A program made the translations under genes and the position numbers. A DNA stretch of 64,000 nt from Alkalidesulfovibrio alkalitolerans DSM 16529. Lineage in GTDB: Bacteria; Desulfobacterota; Desulfovibrionia; Desulfovibrionales; Desulfovibrionaceae. Within the stretch, counting starts at the first letter, position 1. Every line of letters starts with the position of its first letter. The notes beneath the pieces are model-generated. The model was not told where the DNA came from. It was given only the letters and a program-made list of their open reading frames with translations, and did not search any database. Shown piece after piece: positions 5,041 through 44,004 of this stretch. Location of the stretch: the NCBI RefSeq assembly GCF_000422245.1, contig NZ_ATHI01000001.1, positions 1 to 64,000 on the forward strand. Direction: 5' to 3'.

Positions 5041-5162
5041 GGACCGTTGAAATGACGTCATCTGCGGCGTTGCCGCGAAAGCGCCGGCCCCTCGTGTATG
5101 TTCAATACACGTCGGGACCGGCGCTTTCTTGCGCCTTGCATCTGACGCCATTTGAACGGTCC
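5041..5162. repeat. Palindromic element family 1, complete copy
   Basis: This is a 122-bp palindrome with outer arms GGACCGTT and AACGGTCC. Inside are the conserved boxes CATCTG, GCGTTGCCGCGAAA and GCGCCTTGCATCTG, then an inner stem GCGCCGG/CCGGCGC and a distal stem GTGTAT/ATACAC. It lies directly after htpG. Confidence 0.85.
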
Positions 5163-5168
5163 GTGGGT

Positions 5169-5275
5169 GCGGGGCGTATCACCGCCGCACGGGGATGGCT
5201 TTGCCAACGATGGTTCCATTGCGAATCGCGGGGTCCAAGGGGCTCAGCCCCCTCCAGGCGACCCTGTTTTTAGAT
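5169..5275. repeat. Hairpin repeat family 2 (copy 1)
   Basis: The segment shares the boxes CGCCGCAC, GGCTTTGCCA and GCGAATCGCGGGGTCC, followed by a G-run/CTCAG/C-run hairpin, with copies at 31344-31475 and 63119-63240. It fills the space between two family-1 palindromes. No gene is visible in the 424-base gap 5032-5455; all of it is repeat sequence. Confidence 0.75.
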
Positions 5276-5293
5276 TGCCCTTCCCGGTTTCAT

Positions 5294-5415
5294 AGACCGC
5301 TCAAAAAGTGCCAGATGCAAGGCGCAAGAAGAATCCAGGCCCGACGCGTATTGCCAATACGCGAGGGTCTGGATTTTTTGCAGCAACGCAGCAGATGGCG
5401 TTTTTTCAGCGGTCT
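5294..5415. repeat. Palindromic element family 1, complete copy, opposite orientation
   Basis: The 122-bp palindrome has ends AGACCGCTCAAAAAG and TTTTTTCAGCGGTCT, boxes CCAGATGCAAGGCGC and GCAACGCAGCAGATGG, an inner stem AATCCAG/CTGGATT and a distal stem GCGTATTG/CAATACGC. It is inverted relative to the copy at 5041-5162. It ends about 40 bases before the cobD-cobQ start. Confidence 0.85.
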
Positions 5416-5455: not shown

Positions 5456-8065
5456 ATGCCCGAGCACTCCTTCTCCCACGGCGGCCACATCCGGGCCCTG
5501 GCCCAGCGCGCTGGTCGCAATCCATCGGAAATCCTCGACTTCTCGGCCAGCATCAACCCGCTCGGGCCGCCTGCGTGGCTTCGTTCCGTGGTCGCGGGCA
5601 GCCTCTCGCAGGCCGTGCACTATCCCGACCCCGAGGCCCTGACCCTGCGCGAGGCCGCGGCCGCGCTCCACGGCGGCGGGGCGGAGGAATACCTAGCCGG
5701 AAACGGCGTGAGCGACATCCTGTACGTCTTGCCGCGCCTGGGCGGCCACGCGCGGGCCGTGATCCCCGTGCCCGCCTACGGCGACTACGAGCGCGCCGCG
5801 CGGCTGGCCGGGCTCGACGTGACGCACGTGCCCCTTTCGGCCGGGAACGGCTTTCGCCTCGACCCGGGCCTGATCGAGAAGGCGCTCGCAAACGGCCCGG
5901 CCATGGTCTTCCTGGGCCAGCCCAACAACCCCACGGGCACAAGCGTCCCGCCGGGCGAACTGGCCCGCCTCGCCCAGGCCCACCCCGATTCGCTCTTCGT
6001 CATCGACGAGGCCTTTGCCGATTTCACGGCCGATCTGCCGCGCCTGGCCGGGCAGCGGCCGGAAAACATGGTCGTGCTCCTCTCGTTGACCAAGATATTC
6101 GCCGTGCCGGGCCTGCGCCTGGGCCTTGCGGCCGCGGCGCCCGGCCTGATCCGGAAGCTGGCGGATATCTCGCCGCCCTGGCAGTGCTCGACCATCGCCC
6201 AGGCAGTGGGGGCGCGCGCTCTGGCGGACCTGGAGTTTCAGCAGCGGTCGCGCACGGTGGCGCAGGAGTTCAAGGCGCATCTTCTGGGGCTGCTCGCGGC
6301 CTTCCCGGAGATCGAGGTTTTTGCGGGCGAGGCGAATTTCGTCCTTTGCCGCCTGAACGCGCCGGGCCTTGACGGGCGCGACCTGGCCGAGCGGCTTTTG
6401 CAACACGGCATCGCCATCCGCGCCTGCGATACCTTCGCGGGGCTTGACGCCTCGTGGTTCCGGCTGGCCGTGCGGCAAAAGGCCGAGAACGAGCGGCTGG
6501 CCGAGGCCCTGGGCAAGGTGTTCCGTCCGGCCGCGCGCGCCCGCGCCGCAAGGGCGCGCCGTACGCCCGCGATCATGGTCCAGGGCACCTGCTCCAACGC
6601 GGGCAAGAGCGTACTCGCGGCGGGCCTTTGCCGGATATTCGCCCGCAAGGGGCTTTCGCCGTGCCCCTTCAAGGCCCAGAACATGTCGCTCAACTCCTTC
6701 GTGACCATGGACGGCGGCGAGATGGGCCGCGCCCAGGTGACGCAGGCCCTGGCCGCCGGGCGCGAGCCCGAGGCGCGCATGAATCCGGTGCTGCTCAAGC
6801 CCAGCTCCGACACCGGCTCGCAGGTCATCGTGCTGGGCAGGCCCGTGGGCGTGATGCGCGTGGCCCAGTACGTCGCCTACAAGCCCACGGCCTTCGCGGC
6901 CGCGCGCGCGGCCTACGACGAGCTGGCCGCCACGGCCGGGGTCATGGTCGTCGAGGGCGCGGGCTCGCCCGCCGAGGTCAACCTCAAGGCCCACGACATC
7001 GTGAACATGGCCATGGCCCGCCACGCCGGGGCGCGAGTGCTGCTCGTCGCGGACATCGACCGGGGCGGCTCCTTCGCCTCGCTGGCCGGGACCATGGATT
7101 GCCTGGAGGAATGGGAGCGCGCGCTTGTGGCCGGGTTCGTGCTCAACAAGTTCAGGGGCGATGCCTCGCTGCTCGCCGGGGGCTTCGACTTTTTGCGCCT
7201 GCACACCGGCCGCGAGGTGCTCGGCGTTGTGCCCTGGCTGCCCGGCCTGGGCCTGCCCGAGGAGGATTCTGTGTCCTTCAAGCAAGGGCTGACGCTTGCC
7301 GGGAAGGAGGGGGCCGCCCTGGACGTCGCCGTGGCCGACCTGGCGCACATCTCGAACTTCACCGATCTCGACGCCCTGGCCGCCGAGCCGGACGTGCGCC
7401 TTCGCCGCGTGGCGCGCGGCCGCGACCTGGGGCGGCCCGACTGCGTGATCCTGCCCGGCTCCAAGAACACCCTGGCCGACCTCGACCGGCTGCGCGAATC
7501 GGGTCTGGCCGGGGCAGTGGCCGCGCTTCGCGGCCAGACCGTGATCGTGGGCATCTGCGGCGGTTTCCAGATGCTCGGGCAGAGCGTGGCCGACCCCTTG
7601 GGCCTTGAATCCGCGCGCGGCGTCTCGCCGGGCCTTGGGCTTTTGGACGTGCGCACGGTGCTCGCGGCCGAGAAGACCCTGGCGCGGCGCTTGGTCACGG
7701 ACCTGACCACGGGCTGCGCGGTCACGGGGTACGAGATTCATCACGGTGAGACCGTTTTGGGAGAGACCGCTTCGGGGGGAACGGCTCCAGACGGGGGGGC
7801 CTCGCGGCCGTTGTACGCCGAGGACGCGGGCCTTGGCCGCGTCTCGGCCGACGGCCTGACGCTGGGCACCTATCTGCACGGCGTGTTCGACGCCGACGGC
7901 CACCGCCACGCCTTTCTCGACTTCCTGCGCCGCCGCAAGGGGCTTGCGCCGCTGCCTGCCGGGGCCCGCGCGGCCTTCGGCCTGGACGCGGCCCTGGACC
8001 GCCTCGCGGACGCGCTCGAATCGTCGCTCGACATGCAGCGCATCGAGGGTATGCTAGGAATATGA
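5456..8065 (+). CDS. cobQ: CobD-CobQ fusion: threonine-phosphate decarboxylase and cobyric acid synthase
   Basis: The 869-residue protein fuses two cobalamin enzymes. Residues 1 to about 355 are a PLP aminotransferase-fold CobD, with GQPNNPTGT and the PLP lysine in [15 protein letters not shown]; it would make aminopropanol phosphate for the nucleotide loop. Residues 375-869 are CobQ/CbiP, which amidates the corrin ring. They contain [12 protein letters not shown] (dethiobiotin-synthetase-like ATP site), the glutaminase cysteine in [10 protein letters not shown] and the histidine in YLHGVF. The ATG at 5456 starts just before the conserved CobD sequence; the frame stays open upstream only through repeat DNA. 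No cobalamin riboswitch was recognised. The stop overlaps the start of fetA by four bases. Confidence 0.93.
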
Positions 8066-8781
8066 GCACGCCGCTTCTTGAATGCCGCAGGGTGCGCTTC
8101 GCGCATCCAGGCGGGCCGGACCTCTTCACGGACTTCGACTTGGCCGTCGAGGCCGGGGGCTATTACGCGGTGCGCGGGCCTTCGGGCGCGGGCAAATCCA
8201 CGCTGCTGCGCCTGCTGTGCCGTCTGGAAGAGCCCGTGTCCGGCGAGATCCTGTTCCAGGGTCGGCCGCTGGCCGAATACGCCCCGCCCGAGCTTCGCCG
8301 CGCGGTCTGCCTGATCCAGCAGACGCCGCAGGTGTTTCCGGTCTCGGTGCGCGAGAACTTGCTTGTGCCCTTCACCTTGGCGGCCAACGCCTCGCTGCCA
8401 CGGCCAAGCGACCAGGACCTGCTCGCCAGGCTGCACGGCTTTCGCCTCGCAGACGTGGCGCTCACGTCCCAGGCGGCTTCGCTCTCCGTGGGCCAGCGGC
8501 AGCGTTTGTGCCTGATCCGCGCGCTGTTGCTCGGGCCAAAGGCCCTGTTGCTCGACGAGCCCACCTCGGCCCTGGACCCCGAGAGCGCGGCCGTGGTCAT
8601 GGCCGAGATCGCCCGCGTCAACGCCGAGGAGGGCGTGGCCGTGATCATGGTGACGCACGCCGAAGGGTTGAAAATGCCCGCGCGGGCGCGCGAGGTCCGC
8701 GTCGGCGGGGACGGCCGCAAGGGTGATCGTGAAGAATCCGTTTCACAGGCCGTTCAAAAAGCGCCAGATGCAAGGCGCTAG
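8062..8781 (+). CDS. fetA: ABC transporter ATP-binding protein, FetA (YbbL)-like
   Basis: The ATPase carries Walker [10 protein letters not shown], the signature LSVGQRQR and Walker [12 protein letters not shown], and lies next to a FetB-like permease. FetAB homologues are linked to iron export and peroxide tolerance in E. coli; transfer of that role here is inference. The start overlaps the cobQ stop (ATGA). The C-terminus is abnormal: after residue 220 (VGGDGRK) the frame runs into a palindromic element, and the TAG stop lies inside it. Removing the insertion between two 15-bp direct repeats would give a TGA stop overlapping the fetB ATG, so the last 20 or so residues are element-derived. 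Confidence 0.88.
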
Positions 8782-8873
8782 AAAAGTTCAAGGCCGACGC
8801 GTAGTCCAGCTACGCGAGGATTTGAACTTTTCGCGGCAACGCAGCAGATGGTGCTTTAGGGACGGCCGCAAGG
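8708..8873. mobile_element. Palindromic element family 1 inserted at the fetA-fetB junction, flanked by 15-bp direct repeats
   Basis: The bases 8708-8722 (GGGACGGCCGCAAGG) recur exactly at 8859-8873. Between them lies a family-1 palindrome (about 8747-8867 with its arms) preceded by a short leader. Its inner stem is AAAAGTTCAA/TTGAACTTTT and its distal stem GCGTAG/CTACGC. The outer right arm is partly eroded. The direct repeats read as a target-site duplication or equivalent scar. Confidence 0.8.
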
Positions 8874-12629: not shown

Positions 12630-14330
12630 ATGTCGTCCGCCAAGGCTTTTCTTGCGCCTGCCGAGCGCGCCGAGTTCCTGGCCTTCCTGCGCCGCCACGC
12701 GCCCACTTGGGCCTACGGCCAGGAGGAGCCGCGCACCCAGGCCGGGTTCGCCGGGCTCTTCGCGCGTCTGGCGTCGTCCGCGCCGCTGTTCGGGGCCATG
12801 CGCCGGGCCGTGGCCCTGTGGGCCTTCCTGTCGCGGCCGCTCGATACGCAGGCCGCGGCCCTCGCGCGTGAGGCCGAGACGGCCGCGCCGTTTCTCTCGC
12901 CCGCGCAGCTCGGCCTGCTTTCGGCCTGCGAGCGCGCCTTCTCGGGCCATGTCCCGGACGAGTTGCGCGTGGTGCTGCACGATCCCGAGCCCGATCTGCT
13001 CGTGCGGCTGCTCGTGCCGCTTGTGGCCGCGAAGCGCGGCCACGCTCCGGCCTGTCTGGCCGCATCGTGGCCAACGCTCCTGCGCCTGGGCTCGCCCGAA
13101 CTCGCGCGCGACCTGGTGCGGGCCTGCGACTTCGGCCCCGGCGCTGACGCGCTTCGCCCGCGTCTCATGGCCGAGATATCCTTTCATTACGATCCGCCTG
13201 AAACCGCCCTGGCCGCGCTTTCGGACCTGGGCGGAGAATGGGGGCCGTGGGCCGCGCAGCGCCGGGCCGAGTGCCTGGCCGCGCTGGGCGAGACGGCCAA
13301 GGCCGCGCGCCTCTACGCGGAATTGTGGCGCGACAACCCCTGGCACGTGAACCTTGCGCTTCGCCTGCACACCCTGCGCGCGCCAAAGCCCGCGCTGCCC
13401 GACCCGGCCAGGGACGAAGCGGCGGTGTGCCTGTATTCGTGGAACAAGTGCGATCTCTTGCGCGCCACGCTCAAAAGCTTGGCCGCCTCGCGGCTTGGGG
13501 CCGCGCGCGTGCTCGTGCTCGACAACGGCTCCACGGACGGCACGGCCGAGATGCTGCGCGAGATGGCCCCGCGTTTCGCCGAAGGCTGTTTCGGCCACGT
13601 TTCGCTTCTGGTCAACGTGGGCGCTCCGGCGGCGCGCAACTGGCTGCTCACGCTGCCCGAGGCGGCGAATGCCCGCTGGGCGGCCTTCGTGGACGACGAC
13701 GTGATCCTGCCCCCGGATTGGCTGGCCCGGCTGCTGGCCACGGCCAGAAACGCGCAGGCGCGGGGGTTTCGGCCCGGAGCCGTGGGCTGCCGCATCACCG
13801 AGGCCACGGCCCCGTTCGGGCTGCAATCGGCCGACTATCACCTCTTTTTGCCGCCGCCCCGGGAAAAGGGCCAGGAGCCGCTTGCCGAGCGCATCGGCGT
13901 CTTCGACAACTGCGCCGGGCAGCTCGACGCCGGGCTTTTCTCCTACGTGCGGCCGTGCCTGTCGGTCTCGGGCTGCTGCCACCTGATCTCGCGCGAGGCG
14001 CGCGAGGCCTCGGGCGGCTTCGACGTACGCTTCACGCCGACCCAGTTCGACGACCTGGAGCGCGACATGCGCTCGACCCTGGCGGGCTTCCCGAGTCTTT
14101 ACGACGGCGGCCTGGCCGTGCGCCACGTGCAGCACGCGAGCCTGGCCCGCGCCAAGACCCCGGCGCAGGTGGCGCACATCGCGGGCAACAAGGTCAAGCT
14201 CGAAGGCAAGTACGCGGACGACGAGGTCGCGCGGCTGGCCAAGCTGGACCTGGAAGCGTGCTGGACGCACCTGGAGGCCGTGCTCGCGGACTTGGACGAG
14301 GGGCAAACATCCGGCGGAGGCGCGGCGTGA
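12630..14330 (+). CDS. Glycosyltransferase family 2 with alpha-helical N-terminal region
   Basis: The 566-residue protein has an Ala/Leu-rich helical N-terminal half (1-260) that looks like TPR-type or other helical repeats. A GT2 catalytic domain follows from about 265: VCLYSWNKCDLL, VLVLDNGSTDGTAEML, VGAPAARNW and the DXD motif in FVDDDVILPP. It probably transfers a sugar to a surface polymer or protein; neither donor nor acceptor is evident. The ATG at 12630 has no strong ribosome site (GGGCC upstream). The TGA overlaps the GTG start of the next gene, so translation is likely coupled. Confidence 0.82.
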   Translation: MSSAKAFLAPAERAEFLAFLRRHAPTWAYGQEEPRTQAGFAGLFARLASSAPLFGAMRRAVALWAFLSRPLDTQAAALAREAETAAPFLSPAQLGLLSACERAFSGHVPDELRVVLHDPEPDLLVRLLVPLVAAKRGHAPACLAASWPTLLRLGSPELARDLVRACDFGPGADALRPRLMAEISFHYDPPETALAALSDLGGEWGPWAAQRRAECLAALGETAKAARLYAELWRDNPWHVNLALRLHTLRAPKPALPDPARDEAAVCLYSWNKCDLLRATLKSLAASRLGAARVLVLDNGSTDGTAEMLREMAPRFAEGCFGHVSLLVNVGAPAARNWLLTLPEAANARWAAFVDDDVILPPDWLARLLATARNAQARGFRPGAVGCRITEATAPFGLQSADYHLFLPPPREKGQEPLAERIGVFDNCAGQLDAGLFSYVRPCLSVSGCCHLISREAREASGGFDVRFTPTQFDDLERDMRSTLAGFPSLYDGGLAVRHVQHASLARAKTPAQVAHIAGNKVKLEGKYADDEVARLAKLDLEACWTHLEAVLADLDEGQTSGGGAA

Positions 14331-16723: not shown

Positions 16724-16758
16724 GAAGATGCGGGACGGCGGCCTACAGCCGCCGCCCC

Positions 16759-16906
16759 AGGCTGCTGAAAAAGTTCCATCCGCTGCGTTGCCGCGAAAGC
16801 GCCGGACCCTCGCGTATGTCATTATACGCATCGGCCCCGGCGCTTTCTTGCGCCTTGCATCTGGGCCTTTTTGAGCAGCCTGCGCAAAGTGGTTTGTTAA
16901 GCAGCG
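16759..16906. repeat. Palindromic element family 1 with leader, complete copy
   Basis: The palindrome 16759-16881 has arms AGGCTGCTGAAAAAG and CTTTTTGAGCAGCCT, inner stem GCGCCGG/CCGGCGC and distal stem GCGTAT/ATACGC. On the minus strand it is preceded by a leader (about 16882-16906, AACAAACC) resembling the leaders at 23961 and 41230. It lies between alkaline phosphatase and the YibE/F gene. Confidence 0.82.
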
Positions 16907-31343: not shown

Positions 31344-31475
31344 CGGAGCGGGCATCGCCGCCGCACCGGCGTCGGCTTTGTCAGTGATGGCTTCGAAGCG
31401 AATCGCGGGGTCCAGGGGCATCATGCCCCTGGCGGAGGAGGTTCGGAGGAGGCAGCGCCTCCTCCGGGGCACTTC
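31344..31475. repeat. Hairpin repeat family 2 (copy 2)
   Basis: The copy contains ATCGCCGCCGCACCGG, TCGGCTTTG, AGCGAATCGCGGGGTCC, the hairpin CAGGGGCATCATGCCCCTG and a second hairpin GGAGGAGGCAGCGCCTCCTCC. It ends 10 bases before the ahcY stop and may act as its 3'-end structure. Confidence 0.75.
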
Positions 31476-40017: not shown

Positions 40018-40509
40018 CTAGCGCATCAGGGACCGCACGTAAATGAGCTTGTCGTCGCCGGGACGGTAGAACTCGGCGAGCCTAGCCTCGCACGTGAAGC
40101 CGCTGTGCTCGTAGAAGCCGCGCGCGGCCGCGTAAGGCTCGGTGGACGAGGTCTCGGCGTAGAGCTTTCTGCCGCCCGCCAGGCGGATGGCCTCGCAGGC
40201 CGCGTCGAGCAGGCGGCGGGCCAGCCCCTGGCCGCGCGCGGCCGCGTCCACGGCTATCCAGTAGAGGTGACAGGCCCCGTCGCTGCATGCGTCCGGGCCG
40301 TAACAGACATAGCCGCGCACCTCCCCCTCCGCCTCGGCGAAGAGCAGGTGGTAACCCGAGGCGGCCGCGCCCTTGGCCAAGTTCTCCTGCACGAGTTCGC
40401 GGGCCACGTCGATCTCGGCCGGGGTGAAGGCGTTGGCGGTCGCGAGGATGCGGGCCACAGCCTCGACGTCGTCGGGCCTGGCCTTATCGCGGAGCGTGAG
40501 ACTAGGCAT
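40018..40509 (-). CDS. GNAT N-acetyltransferase
   Basis: The 163-residue GNAT has the acetyl-CoA-binding motif A (VDAAARGQGLARRLLDAA) and the usual LYAETSS/PYAAARGFYEHSGF C-terminal motif. Its start overlaps the stop of the second ATP-grasp gene by 8 bases, placing it as the last gene of a kamA-ATP-grasp-ATP-grasp operon. It may acetylate the product of that pathway; in known Nε-acetyl-β-lysine synthesis an acetyltransferase (AblB) works with the aminomutase. AblB is longer and this protein is not clearly AblB, so the substrate remains open. Confidence 0.87.
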   Translation of the reverse strand: MPSLTLRDKARPDDVEAVARILATANAFTPAEIDVARELVQENLAKGAAASGYHLLFAEAEGEVRGYVCYGPDACSDGACHLYWIAVDAAARGQGLARRLLDAACEAIRLAGGRKLYAETSSTEPYAAARGFYEHSGFTCEARLAEFYRPGDDKLIYVRSLMR

Positions 40510-41668
40510 GTGTGTTCCGTGTACGCACGGCGGCCGAAAGGATGCGTTCCACGGCCCGTCCGTACGGTATCCCGGCCTGTTCGCAGGCCGCCGCGAATCC
40601 GGCGTCCGGCGCGAGGCAGGGGTTGGCGTTGATGTCGATGACCCACGGCGCGCCGTTCTTGTCCACGCGAAAATCCACCCGCGCGTAGCCCGAAAGGCCG
40701 AAGGCCCGCCAGCAGGCCAGGGCGAGGGCCGAGAGCGTCGAGGTCAGCCCGGCGTCCTCGGGCGAAAGGTCGAAGGCGCGCGTGGAGAGCCCGTACTCCG
40801 GGCACTCGGGATTCCATTTGGCGTCGTAGGTCAGGATAGTCCGCCGCCACTGGCCCGAAAAGCGCATTTCGGCCGGGGGCAAGGCGCGCGGCAGGCCGTC
40901 CTCGTCCGCGAGCAGCGAGACGGCGAACTCACGGCCCTCCACGTAGGCCTCGGCGAACAGGTCCAGCCCTTGGCGCGCGTGCGCTTTGGCGAGCGCTTCA
41001 GCCAGATCGGCGGGGCTTGCCGCCTCGACCACGGAATCCTGGCCGATGCCCTTGGAGGCGTGCTCGCGGCAGGGTTTGATGATGTAGGGTCCGGGAGCGA
41101 ACCGGGCAGGCTGCTGAAAAAGTCCCATCTGCTGCGTTGCCGTGAAAAGTTCAAGCCCTCGCGTAGCTGGACTACGCGTCGGCCTTGAACTTTTTGTGCG
41201 CCTTGCATCTGGGCCTTTTTGAGCAGCCTGGGAAAAGGGGGTTGTCAGCAAGTCCGTGGCGTTCGTCCGGGACGCGGCCCCGGTTTCGGACCAGACCTCG
41301 GCCCAGGCCGGGGTGGGGATGCCCCGCGCGGCCAGGAGCCGCTTGGCCAAGGGCTTGTCGTTGCTCAGGACGAGCGCGGTCCCGCCCGAGCCGGTGCAGG
41401 CGACGCCCGCGCGCGCGAGCACGTCGGGCACGACATGGGCCAGCGCGTCCGTGCCCATGAGCGTCTCGGCCAGGTTGAAGACCGCGTCCACGCGCGCGGC
41501 CTTGATCTCGGCCAGAAGGCGCGAAAGATCAAGGTCCGCCGAGACGTTCACGGTCGCATGGCCCAGGGAGCGCAGCGCCTCGCCCACGGCCTCGGCCTGG
41601 ACCAGGGAATCCAGGTCGTCGGCCGGGCTGTCCGGGGCGAGGCGGCTTGTCAGCAGGGCGACGCGCAT
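40502..41668 (-). CDS. ATP-grasp ligase (D-Ala-D-Ala ligase-like) with in-frame palindromic element
   Basis: The 388-residue protein is a D-Ala-D-Ala ligase-type ATP-grasp enzyme: N-terminal domain to about residue 110 (SNDKPLAKRLL), the central GPYIIKPCREHASKGI phosphate-binding segment, VEGREFAVSL and the Mg-binding DINANP. About 51 residues (TDLLTTPFSQ to GLFQQPA) near position 135-185 are translated from an inserted family-1 palindromic element. That is between the PTPAWAEVW strand and the RFAPGPYI strand. The frame stays open across it. The insertion may be tolerated as a surface loop or may impair the enzyme. It is the third gene of the four-gene operon. Confidence 0.85.
   Translation of the reverse strand: MRVALLTSRLAPDSPADDLDSLVQAEAVGEALRSLGHATVNVSADLDLSRLLAEIKAARVDAVFNLAETLMGTDALAHVVPDVLARAGVACTGSGGTALVLSNDKPLAKRLLAARGIPTPAWAEVWSETGAASRTNATDLLTTPFSQAAQKGPDARRTKSSRPTRSPATRGLELFTATQQMGLFQQPARFAPGPYIIKPCREHASKGIGQDSVVEAASPADLAEALAKAHARQGLDLFAEAYVEGREFAVSLLADEDGLPRALPPAEMRFSGQWRRTILTYDAKWNPECPEYGLSTRAFDLSPEDAGLTSTLSALALACWRAFGLSGYARVDFRVDKNGAPWVIDINANPCLAPDAGFAAACEQAGIPYGRAVERILSAAVRTRNTHA
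41108..41254. mobile_element. Palindromic element family 1 with leader, inserted inside a coding gene
   Basis: The palindrome 41108-41229 has arms AGGCTGCTGAAAAAG and TTTTTGAGCAGCCT, inner stem AAAAGTTCAA/TTGAACTTTT and distal stem GCGTAG/CTACGC. On the minus strand a leader (41230-41254, GACTTGCTGACAACC then T/C-rich) resembles that at 23961. It adds about 51 codons to the ATP-grasp gene. Confidence 0.88.
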
Positions 41669-41679
41669 GGCCCGGGCGC

Positions 41680-42705
41680 TCAGATGGCGGCCCGGCGCAC
41701 GGGCCGTCGCGCCTTGGGCGCGTCCAGCGAGAGCCCCGCGCGCGCGCAGGCCGAGCGCACGATGCCCGCGATGAGTTCCTGGTAGGGCATGCCCGCCAGG
41801 CGGCAGAGGATGGGCAGATCCGAGTAGTCGGGGTTGAGCCCCGGCAGGGGATTGATCTCGATGACCTCGGCCTGGCCGTGCTCGTTCAGACGCACGTCCA
41901 CGCGGCCGCCGTCGCGGCAGGAGAGCGCGCGCCAGGCGTCCAAAGAGACGCGGGCCGCGTCGCGGGCCGCCTGGTCGTCCACGAGGCGGTATTTCACGCG
42001 ATCCTCGTAGAGCCACTTGTTTTCGAGGGAGTAGGCCCCGGCCTCGGCGTTTTCGGTCAGCAAAACCTCCATCACGCCAAGGCTTTTCGCCTCCTCGCCG
42101 CTGCCCATGATGCCCACGGTGAACTCGCGGCCCGGCAGGTAGCGCTCCACGAGCACGGGCTGCCTGTGCGCGGCCAAAAGCTCGTCGCACACGGCCAAAA
42201 GCTCCTCGGGCGTGCGACACAACGAGCGGGCCGAGACGCCCTTGCTCGTGCCCTCGGCAACGGGCTTGGCGAACAGCGGCCAAGCCAGCGACACCGCGGC
42301 CGCCTGGCCGGGCCGCTCGATCACGGCGAAGTCCGGGGTGGGCACGCCCGCGCTTTTCAGCACGCGCTTGGTCATGGCCTTGTGCAGGCACAGGGAGAGG
42401 ACAAGCGGATCGGAGAAGACGCAGGGAATGGCGTAGGCCTCCAGAAGGGCCGGAATCTGGGACTCGCGCGCGAAGCCCGAAAGCCCCTCCGCGATGTTGA
42501 AGACCAGATCCCAGCGCTCGCCAAGGGCCAGACGCCGCACCAGATCGCGCACCGTGCCGATGGGATCGGTCTCGCAGCCCATGGCCCATAGGGCCTCTTC
42601 GATGGCCTGGATGGTCTCGGGGCAGTCGAATTCGGCCACCTCCTCCGGGGTGTACCCCTGGGCGAGATAGGCTTCCTTCAGGTCGTAGGTGATGCCGACG
42701 CGCAT
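41680..42705 (-). CDS. ATP-grasp ligase (D-Ala-D-Ala ligase-like)
   Basis: The 341-residue enzyme is a second, intact D-Ala-D-Ala ligase-type ATP-grasp protein. It has LVFNIAEGLSGFARESQIPALLEA (substrate-binding loop), LPLFAKPVAEGTSKGVS-like FAKPVAEGTSKGV, VERYLPGREFTVGI and the Mg-binding VIEINPLPGLNP. It diverges from housekeeping Ddl in its N-terminus (MRVGITYDLKEAYL). ATP-dependent amide-bond formation between amino acids is the family reaction. The start lies three bases after the kamA stop, and the next ATP-grasp gene starts 12 bases after its own stop. Confidence 0.88.
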   Translation of the reverse strand: MRVGITYDLKEAYLAQGYTPEEVAEFDCPETIQAIEEALWAMGCETDPIGTVRDLVRRLALGERWDLVFNIAEGLSGFARESQIPALLEAYAIPCVFSDPLVLSLCLHKAMTKRVLKSAGVPTPDFAVIERPGQAAAVSLAWPLFAKPVAEGTSKGVSARSLCRTPEELLAVCDELLAAHRQPVLVERYLPGREFTVGIMGSGEEAKSLGVMEVLLTENAEAGAYSLENKWLYEDRVKYRLVDDQAARDAARVSLDAWRALSCRDGGRVDVRLNEHGQAEVIEINPLPGLNPDYSDLPILCRLAGMPYQELIAGIVRSACARAGLSLDAPKARRPVRRAAI

Positions 42706-42708
42706 GGC

Positions 42709-44004
42709 TCAGGCCTCTGCGTGACCGCGCATGAGCGCGGCCGTGGCCGGGTCGCGGGAAAGGAAGGTCCGGCCCTCGTAGTTCACGAAGACCAAGTCGT
42801 CGCCCGAGACGCCGGCGAGGTATTCGGGCAGCACCGGGGCCTTGCCGCCGCCGCCGGGCAGGTCCACCACGAGCTGCGGCACGGCGTAGCCCGAGGTGTG
42901 GCCGCGCAGGGAGCGGATGATCTCCACGCCCGTGGCCAGGGGCGCGCGGAAATGGCCCGCGCCGCGCACCTGGTCGCACTGGTACAGGTAGTAGGGCCGC
43001 ACGCGGTTCTTCATCAGGCCGCGCATGAGCGGCACCATGGCCGCCGGAGAGTCGTTGACGCCCGACAGGAGCACGGTCTGGCTGCCCAGCGGGATGCCCG
43101 CGTCGGCCAGCCTGGCGAAGGCCTGGGCCGACTCCGGGGTCAACTCGTCGGGGTGGGTGCAGTGCACGCTCATCCACAGCGGGTGGTAGCGTTTGAGGAT
43201 CTTCACCAGCGCGGGGGTTATGCGCTGCGGCAGGACCATCGGGGTCTTGGTGCCCAGGCGGATGACCTCAACGTGCGGGATGGCACGCAGCCGCGAGAGG
43301 ATGTGCTCGATGGCGCGGTCGGAGAGCGTGAGCGGATCGCCGCCCGAGACGATGACGTCGCGGATGGCCGGGGTGCGGGCGATGTAGGCCAGGGCCTGCT
43401 CCCAGACATGGGCCGCGGGCATGCGCGAGGGGCCCTTGCCCACACGCCGCGAGCGGGTGCAGTAGCGGCAGTAGGCCGAGCAGAAGTCCGTGGCCAGGAA
43501 CAGGGCGCGGTCCGGATAGCGGTGCACGAGCCCAGGCACGGGGGAGTCGTCCTCCTCGCCCAGGGGGTCGGCGGCCTCGCATTCGGAAGGCGTGAATTCG
43601 GCCATGGAGGGAATCATGGTGCGGCGCAGGGGGCTTTGAGGCCCTTGCGCGGCGAATAGGGAAAGATAGTACGGCGTCACGGCCACGGGCAGGCGTCCGC
43701 CCTTGGCGCTTAGGGCCATCAGTTCGTCGGGACTGAGCGCGATGACGCGGGATATCTGGGCCACGCTCGTCAGGCGGTTCCTGATCTGCCAGCGCCAGTC
43801 GGTCCATTGCTCTGCGGTGGAGTTGGGGAAATGGGTGGAATAAAACGCCTCCCTGGCCGCGTCCACGACCATGACCGGAGGCTTGCGCGTCTGCGCGCCA
43901 AACGGAGTTGGACGGCCCCGCCGCGAGAACGCGAGGGAGAGGGGTGACGACGGAGGTTCGATGGGCGCGGCCGACTGCTCGGCGGCTTCGCTGGCCTGGG
44001 TCAC
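42709..44004 (-). CDS. KamA-family radical SAM aminomutase
   Basis: The 431-residue protein has the radical SAM cluster CSAYCRYC, DVIVSGGDPLTLSD, QTVLLSGVNDSP, YYLYQCDQVRGAGHFR and the PLP lysine segment QLVVDLPGGGGK. These define the lysine 2,3-aminomutase family, which shifts an amino group from C2 to C3. The C-terminal CxCxxC zinc site of the classic clostridial enzyme is absent. Lysine versus glutamate as substrate cannot be settled by eye. A GTG start at 44004 has AAGGAG upstream and yields a 60-residue low-complexity N-terminal extension. It leads an operon with two ATP-grasp ligases and a GNAT. Confidence 0.88.
   Translation of the reverse strand: MTQASEAAEQSAAPIEPPSSPLSLAFSRRGRPTPFGAQTRKPPVMVVDAAREAFYSTHFPNSTAEQWTDWRWQIRNRLTSVAQISRVIALSPDELMALSAKGGRLPVAVTPYYLSLFAAQGPQSPLRRTMIPSMAEFTPSECEAADPLGEEDDSPVPGLVHRYPDRALFLATDFCSAYCRYCTRSRRVGKGPSRMPAAHVWEQALAYIARTPAIRDVIVSGGDPLTLSDRAIEHILSRLRAIPHVEVIRLGTKTPMVLPQRITPALVKILKRYHPLWMSVHCTHPDELTPESAQAFARLADAGIPLGSQTVLLSGVNDSPAAMVPLMRGLMKNRVRPYYLYQCDQVRGAGHFRAPLATGVEIIRSLRGHTSGYAVPQLVVDLPGGGGKAPVLPEYLAGVSGDDLVFVNYEGRTFLSRDPATAALMRGHAEA

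Follow-up and report, generated by a model that had tools for sequence, protein, structure and literature searches.

The stretch of DNA analysed here (the window) comprises 64,000 nt at the start of contig NZ_ATHI01000001.1 of Alkalidesulfovibrio alkalitolerans DSM 16529. Between positions 40018 and 44106 its minus strand carries genes for a lysine-2,3-aminomutase-like radical SAM protein, two Ddl-like ATP-grasp ligases and a GNAT acetyltransferase, and the tandem arrangement of the ligases recurs across most homologous loci. The second ligase gene contains a palindromic element, and its reading frame, from the ATG at 41668 to the stop at 40502, is open through the whole of it, as the initial annotation had stated for the element and its leader. 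We set the start at this ATG, just downstream of the first ligase; the start at 43177 in the list of open reading frames is mechanical. The coordinates of the features are collected in Table 1.

Table 1. Features of the ligase locus and copies of the element with long duplications (positions in the window unless a locus is named)
Feature	Position	Strand	Basis
Second ATP-grasp, D-Ala-D-Ala-ligase-like gene with the insertion, 388 aa	40502..41668	-	ORF, Pfam, PDB sequence and fold matches
First ATP-grasp Ddl-like ligase, adjacent, without insert	41680..42705	-	ORF, Pfam; tandem pair
Imperfect palindrome, 124 nt, mobile-element core (CAGGCTGCTGAAAAAG ... CTTTTTGAGCAGCCTG)	41107..41230		folding, copies, compensatory arm changes (19 copies)
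Asymmetric element tail (..GGTTGTCAGCAA plus about 3 nt)	41231..41254		common to full-length copies; flanking duplications start just beyond
49 element-derived codons, residues 140-188, LLTTPFSQ...LFQQPA	41105..41251	-	codon score, GC3
Decayed target duplication, possible left copy (TCCGGGAGCGAACCGGG)	41090..41106		weak; 8-nt word shared with the right flank
Copies with 14-27 bp hairpin-like direct duplications	L002, L003, L007, L008, L014, window 16758-16900		

The second ligase matches the Pfam domain Dala_Dala_lig_C (PF07478) with an E value of 1.5e-17, and D-Ala-D-Ala ligases in the PDB match it by sequence as well as by fold, the best Foldseek match of the modelled protein being P. aeruginosa DdlA (E 1.3e-21). 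The NCBIfam Ddl models score it at 109 and 94 bits, under their cut-offs of 243 and 246, and it is best described as a Ddl-like ligase rather than a certified true Ddl equivalog.

The insert differs from its host gene in codon usage. Within it the codon score is -0.49 and GC3 is 0.47, compared with +0.38 and 0.94 before the insert and +0.25 and 0.85 after it, so that codon use is foreign within the insert only and strongly host-like on both sides. As a single strand the insert folds better than 200 of 200 shuffled sequences (z -5.25 as RNA and -4.80 as DNA). The tail proper, which had earlier been called a leader, spans 21 nt (41231-41251). The element's tail end and the start of the palindrome form an imperfect inverted repeat (GTTGA[AC]AAA).

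None of the 31 ligase homologues, drawn from related genera and two other lineages, contains the insert. The linker between a conserved W and a conserved K is 75 residues long here, 17-27 residues in 30 of the homologues and 43 residues in the remaining one; in congeners it reads WVEADGSAGGEFAPGEFILKP and WVEPDGEGGALTGGTFAPGEYIVKP. An ancestral ligase loop whose likeness to the repeat is coincidental would agree with the variable length of this site among homologues, but it is refuted by the absence of the insert from all 31 and by the fact that, across 145 nt, the window copy is 90% identical to the consensus sequence of a repeat family with many copies. Another reading, that two loci were wrongly joined at a repeat during assembly, draws on the multicopy nature of the element and on the draft state of the genome (32 contigs). 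Here, however, each flank is one half of the same ligase, arranged in the frame and order seen in the homologues, and the repeat is only about 150 nt long, which makes a chance misjoin very unlikely. The in-frame insertion of a cleanly bounded, MITE-like palindrome is thus real.

The element itself contributes 49 residues, and the total added length is 51-59 residues, given as a range because the start and end of the empty site are unseen; the figure of about 51 proposed at the outset agrees with this. The empty site was inferred from congeners, with 53-61% protein identity over matched stretches. Reconstructed before insertion as either ..WSETGAASRFAPG.. or ..WSETRFAPG.., it implies 55 or 59 added residues. 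A target duplication of the ligase copy's own is not convincing: it amounts at best to a shared 8-nt word, with a score of 8 that is equalled by about 4% of mismatched flank pairs.

AlphaFold2, run on a shallow alignment of four sequences (mean pLDDT 70), gave pLDDT values below 50 for residues 135-188 and folded the remainder as a Ddl. The insert is therefore predicted to be a disordered loop on an otherwise intact Ddl fold, and the earlier suggestion of a tolerated surface loop is borne out as far as the model goes, namely for an unstructured loop. There is no stop or frameshift in the 388 ligase codons, both flanks of the insert show strong coding bias, and the D-I-N-A-N-P residues and other invariant positions are retained, in line with the earlier description of an otherwise intact, operonic gene. 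A lesion-free gene does not prove that the ligase is no recent pseudogene. The enzyme could have been damaged by an insertion that is in frame by chance: the insert directly precedes the conserved K-P strand, the gene is dispensable in that only 30 of 59 relatives have a second-ligase match at the cutoff used, and the adjacent paralogue might cover the role of the ligase. Set against the intact frame and motifs, against homologues whose length varies at the same place, reaching 43 residues, and against the modelling of the insert as a disordered loop, we regard such damage as rather unlikely.

The insert belongs to a family with many members in this genome. In a DNA search the copies matched the window copy at up to about 88% identity, a covariance model built from 19 copies found 146 places, and a profile search yielded 162 distinct copies, a census that rests on the stretches around matches. 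Standard pairs make up 96.6% of the paired cells in the arms of these 19 copies, and 10 pairs are changed on both sides, compared with 3.0 in shuffles; the arms therefore change together. Full-length copies end in ..GTTTGTCAACAA, and GTTGA[AC]AAA is common to both element ends in this genome. That the tail moves with the element follows from its presence in the full-length copies and from the flanking duplications, which begin beyond it. At window 5042-5414 two inverted copies, separated by about 130 nt, enclose a different repeat (GCGAATCGCGGGGTCCAAGGGGCTCAGCCCCCT) and form a composite repeat; GCGAATCGCGGGGTCCAAGGGGCTCAGCCCCCT is also present near 31374 and 63147. A search of the window with Rfam returned tRNA only, and plasmid, phage and viral collections contained no copy of the element.

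The element is mobile and makes target-site duplications. In the complete genome of one relative (G043), which carries many near-identical copies, 13 of the 15 copies in which neither end is damaged are flanked on either side by the same 4 bp, with the pattern NTAN. The outer ends in G043 (CAGTCCGTTGAAAAACTCC / CTGAGTGTTGAAAAAGTCC) are imperfect inverted repeats. The duplications differ in length between the two genomes: in A. alkalitolerans seven copies have abutting direct duplications of 14-27 bp that are hairpin-like (e.g. AGCGCCGGTGCGACATCGGCGCT) and mostly begin 3-4 nt after model position 145. Their scores are 25, 24, 21, 17, 16, 15 and 13, while in a larger control mismatched pairs mostly scored 5-6 and single ones reached as high as 20; the top two scores exceed every control pair, and the longest duplications are clear, the shortest less so individually. 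Several other copies adjoin terminator-like hairpins. This pattern suggests insertion at hairpins, with the hairpin being duplicated.

With a length of about 148 nt, which is too short for a transposase, many copies, imperfect terminal inverted repeats and target duplications, the element has the traits of a MITE, and the family is MITE-like and apparently unnamed. No DUF772, DDE_Tnp_1 or Y1 gene that could serve as its mobilising transposase was found in this genome. An IS1182/IS5-type partner, considered on account of the variable duplication lengths, was rejected since DUF772 is absent in seven genomes. DDE_Tnp_1 was likewise set aside: it has no member in the element's own genome, and the DDE_Tnp_1 loci retrieved from other genomes are without element ends. 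Nor is a RAYT partner indicated, as the element carriers G000, G001, G002 and G140 have no Y1_Tnp. In G043 the two copies near Y1 (RAYT-like) transposase sequences (L375:1972-2122 and 13584-13735) seem to be insertions that break these sequences at one shared point, and both lie within a segment of about 620 bp that is duplicated at 94% identity.

How often the element becomes part of a protein was assessed by scanning all 162 copies for coding signal, with codon bias learned from the window as the measure. The ligase copy alone is flanked on each side by such signal within a single open frame. For two others the signal is present to either side on a single strand; they lie between neighbouring genes, and one of them supplies the end of an ORF. 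Long open frames over further copies (L012, L187, L336 and others) were discarded as non-coding or wrong-strand by codon bias. In-frame insertion is thus rare, the ligase being the only clear case among 162. Most of a bacterial genome is coding, and intragenic copies are therefore strongly depleted. An ABC-transporter ATP-binding ORF on the plus strand (window 8062-8781) is overlapped at its end by a copy at 8738-8857, which gives its last residues and stop codon. A copy in a Rokubacteria genome (L063:2275-2404) lies in frame just upstream of a true D-Ala-D-Ala ligase gene and is probably 5' untranslated, because the start codon comes after it.

A second in-frame case was found in the NC10 bacterium RIFCSPLOWO2_12_FULL_66_18 (L066:3034-3166, METI01000056.1; also L249 and L276), where a copy lies inside a gene of the uracil-DNA-glycosylase superfamily (PF03167, 7.8e-17) related to mismatch-specific glycosylases. 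Orientation and frame are as in the ligase (LLTQAGQKGPGARK...TQQMGLFQQP in the glycosylase and LLTTPFSQAAQKGPDARR...TQQMGLFQQP in the ligase). Four close homologues of the glycosylase lack the element and are continuous over the site, e.g. FGKGAFRRFGPQ, and the insertion, in another phylum, is independent of that in the ligase. Among the copies screened in related and NC10 genomes there was no clear case beyond the glycosylase, so that two are established. Family members with closely similar outer ends occur in Candidatus Methylomirabilota (NC10), one Rokubacteria genome, Pseudodesulfovibrio and Fundidesulfovibrio; 34 of the 199 genomes sampled from the bacterial family contain the element at the peptide level, and 16 of 39 relatives at the DNA level.

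The shared frame of the two cases has a simple explanation. Of 140 copies, 65% are free of stops throughout the element in the frame used by the ligase, compared with 11% of shuffled copies and 14-45% for the other frames; because this frame is mostly open, an in-frame copy is likely to use it, and selection is not needed. The same figures, together with two independent cases in the same frame, could be taken to indicate an element adapted to coding regions, with an open frame under selection, in a system like that of the palindromic elements (RPEs) of Rickettsia. However, of the 162 copies in this genome just one lies inside a coding gene and in its frame, the copies screened in related and NC10 genomes added one further case only, composition and palindrome can themselves yield an open frame, and a shared frame is expected when just one is usable. 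We therefore give adaptation to coding regions only a slim chance, and the initial idea that this lineage does as Rickettsia does fails on the copy scan.

Several known systems resemble the element in part. In-frame palindromic repeats are established in Rickettsia, and for R. conorii 44 RPE insertions have been reported, nearly half of them in ORFs (Ogata 2000/2002, as given in PMC10969869). By that account, the element is like the RPEs in being palindromic, about 150 nt long and in frame in unrelated genes to which it adds about 50 residues, and differs from them in that in-frame insertion is frequent for RPEs and is found here in one of 162 copies. Palindromic repeats within ORFs are also known from many non-rickettsial genera in the form of the intragenic GTAG/CGTC REPs, including those of Opitutus, Thauera, Xanthomonas and others (PMC3733652). 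REPs are units of 20-40 bp with a GTAG or CGTC tag and are linked to RAYT (Y1) transposases (PMC3733652). In contrast, the element described here is a single unit of about 148 nt with target duplications and no Y1 gene in its genome; its ends (CAGGCTG.. and ..GTCAACAATCTC) have no GTAG/CGTC tag, and it forms one long palindrome.

In general features the element resembles MITEs such as ERIC, Correia/NEMIS, RUP and others (PMC10969869), which are short, multicopy, mostly intergenic, without a transposase of their own, and have imperfect terminal inverted repeats and target duplications. Compared with these, the element is nearly fully palindromic with an asymmetric tail, no autonomous partner was found for it in the searches for DUF772, DDE_Tnp_1 and Y1 genes, and its duplications are of 4 bp (NTAN) in one relative and of 14-27 bp, as hairpins, in this genome. 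In-frame MITE fusions are 'not unusual' according to the review just cited, and with the intragenic REPs already described in PMC3733652, the presumed newness of in-frame palindromes beyond Rickettsia does not hold. The open-licence literature, searched by element sequence and organism, held nothing relevant. The phenomenon itself was already known; what looks new is the family of elements, together with its occurrence in several phyla and its association with hairpins as targets.

Taken together, the gene very probably arose by insertion of a non-autonomous, MITE-like palindrome into the linker of the ligase, with the frame kept and about 50 residues gained. An element of about 148 nt, moved by an enzyme that leaves target-site duplications, would have entered the variable linker that joins the N-terminal to the central domain of the ATP-grasp ligase. 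With element and duplicated target together making up a multiple of three, and with an orientation and frame that are usually stop-free, the product would thereby have gained about 50 residues. These are predicted to be a disordered loop that stays clear of the conserved ATP-grasp motifs, and we infer that the ligase is made and still active. In-frame copies would then be the few that remain after intragenic insertions have been purged, and not the outcome of an in-frame targeting mechanism. It is tempting to go further and speculate that one palindrome family, spread over several phyla, inserts at hairpins by duplicating the whole hairpin, keeps one translatable frame and has time and again extended unrelated proteins by a similar peptide of about 50 residues, examples being the Ddl-like ligase and the NC10 mismatch-specific glycosylase; we consider this extended version quite unlikely.

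In the ligase and the glycosylase, which belong to different phyla and have known folds, mobile palindromic DNA has become protein sequence independently and with clean boundaries, outside the lineages where this had been described. The element family, with its hairpin-linked insertion sites, is an open lead. Both enzymes lend themselves to assays in which the form with the added loop is compared with one lacking it, a direct test of whether such insertions are tolerated, harmful or useful.
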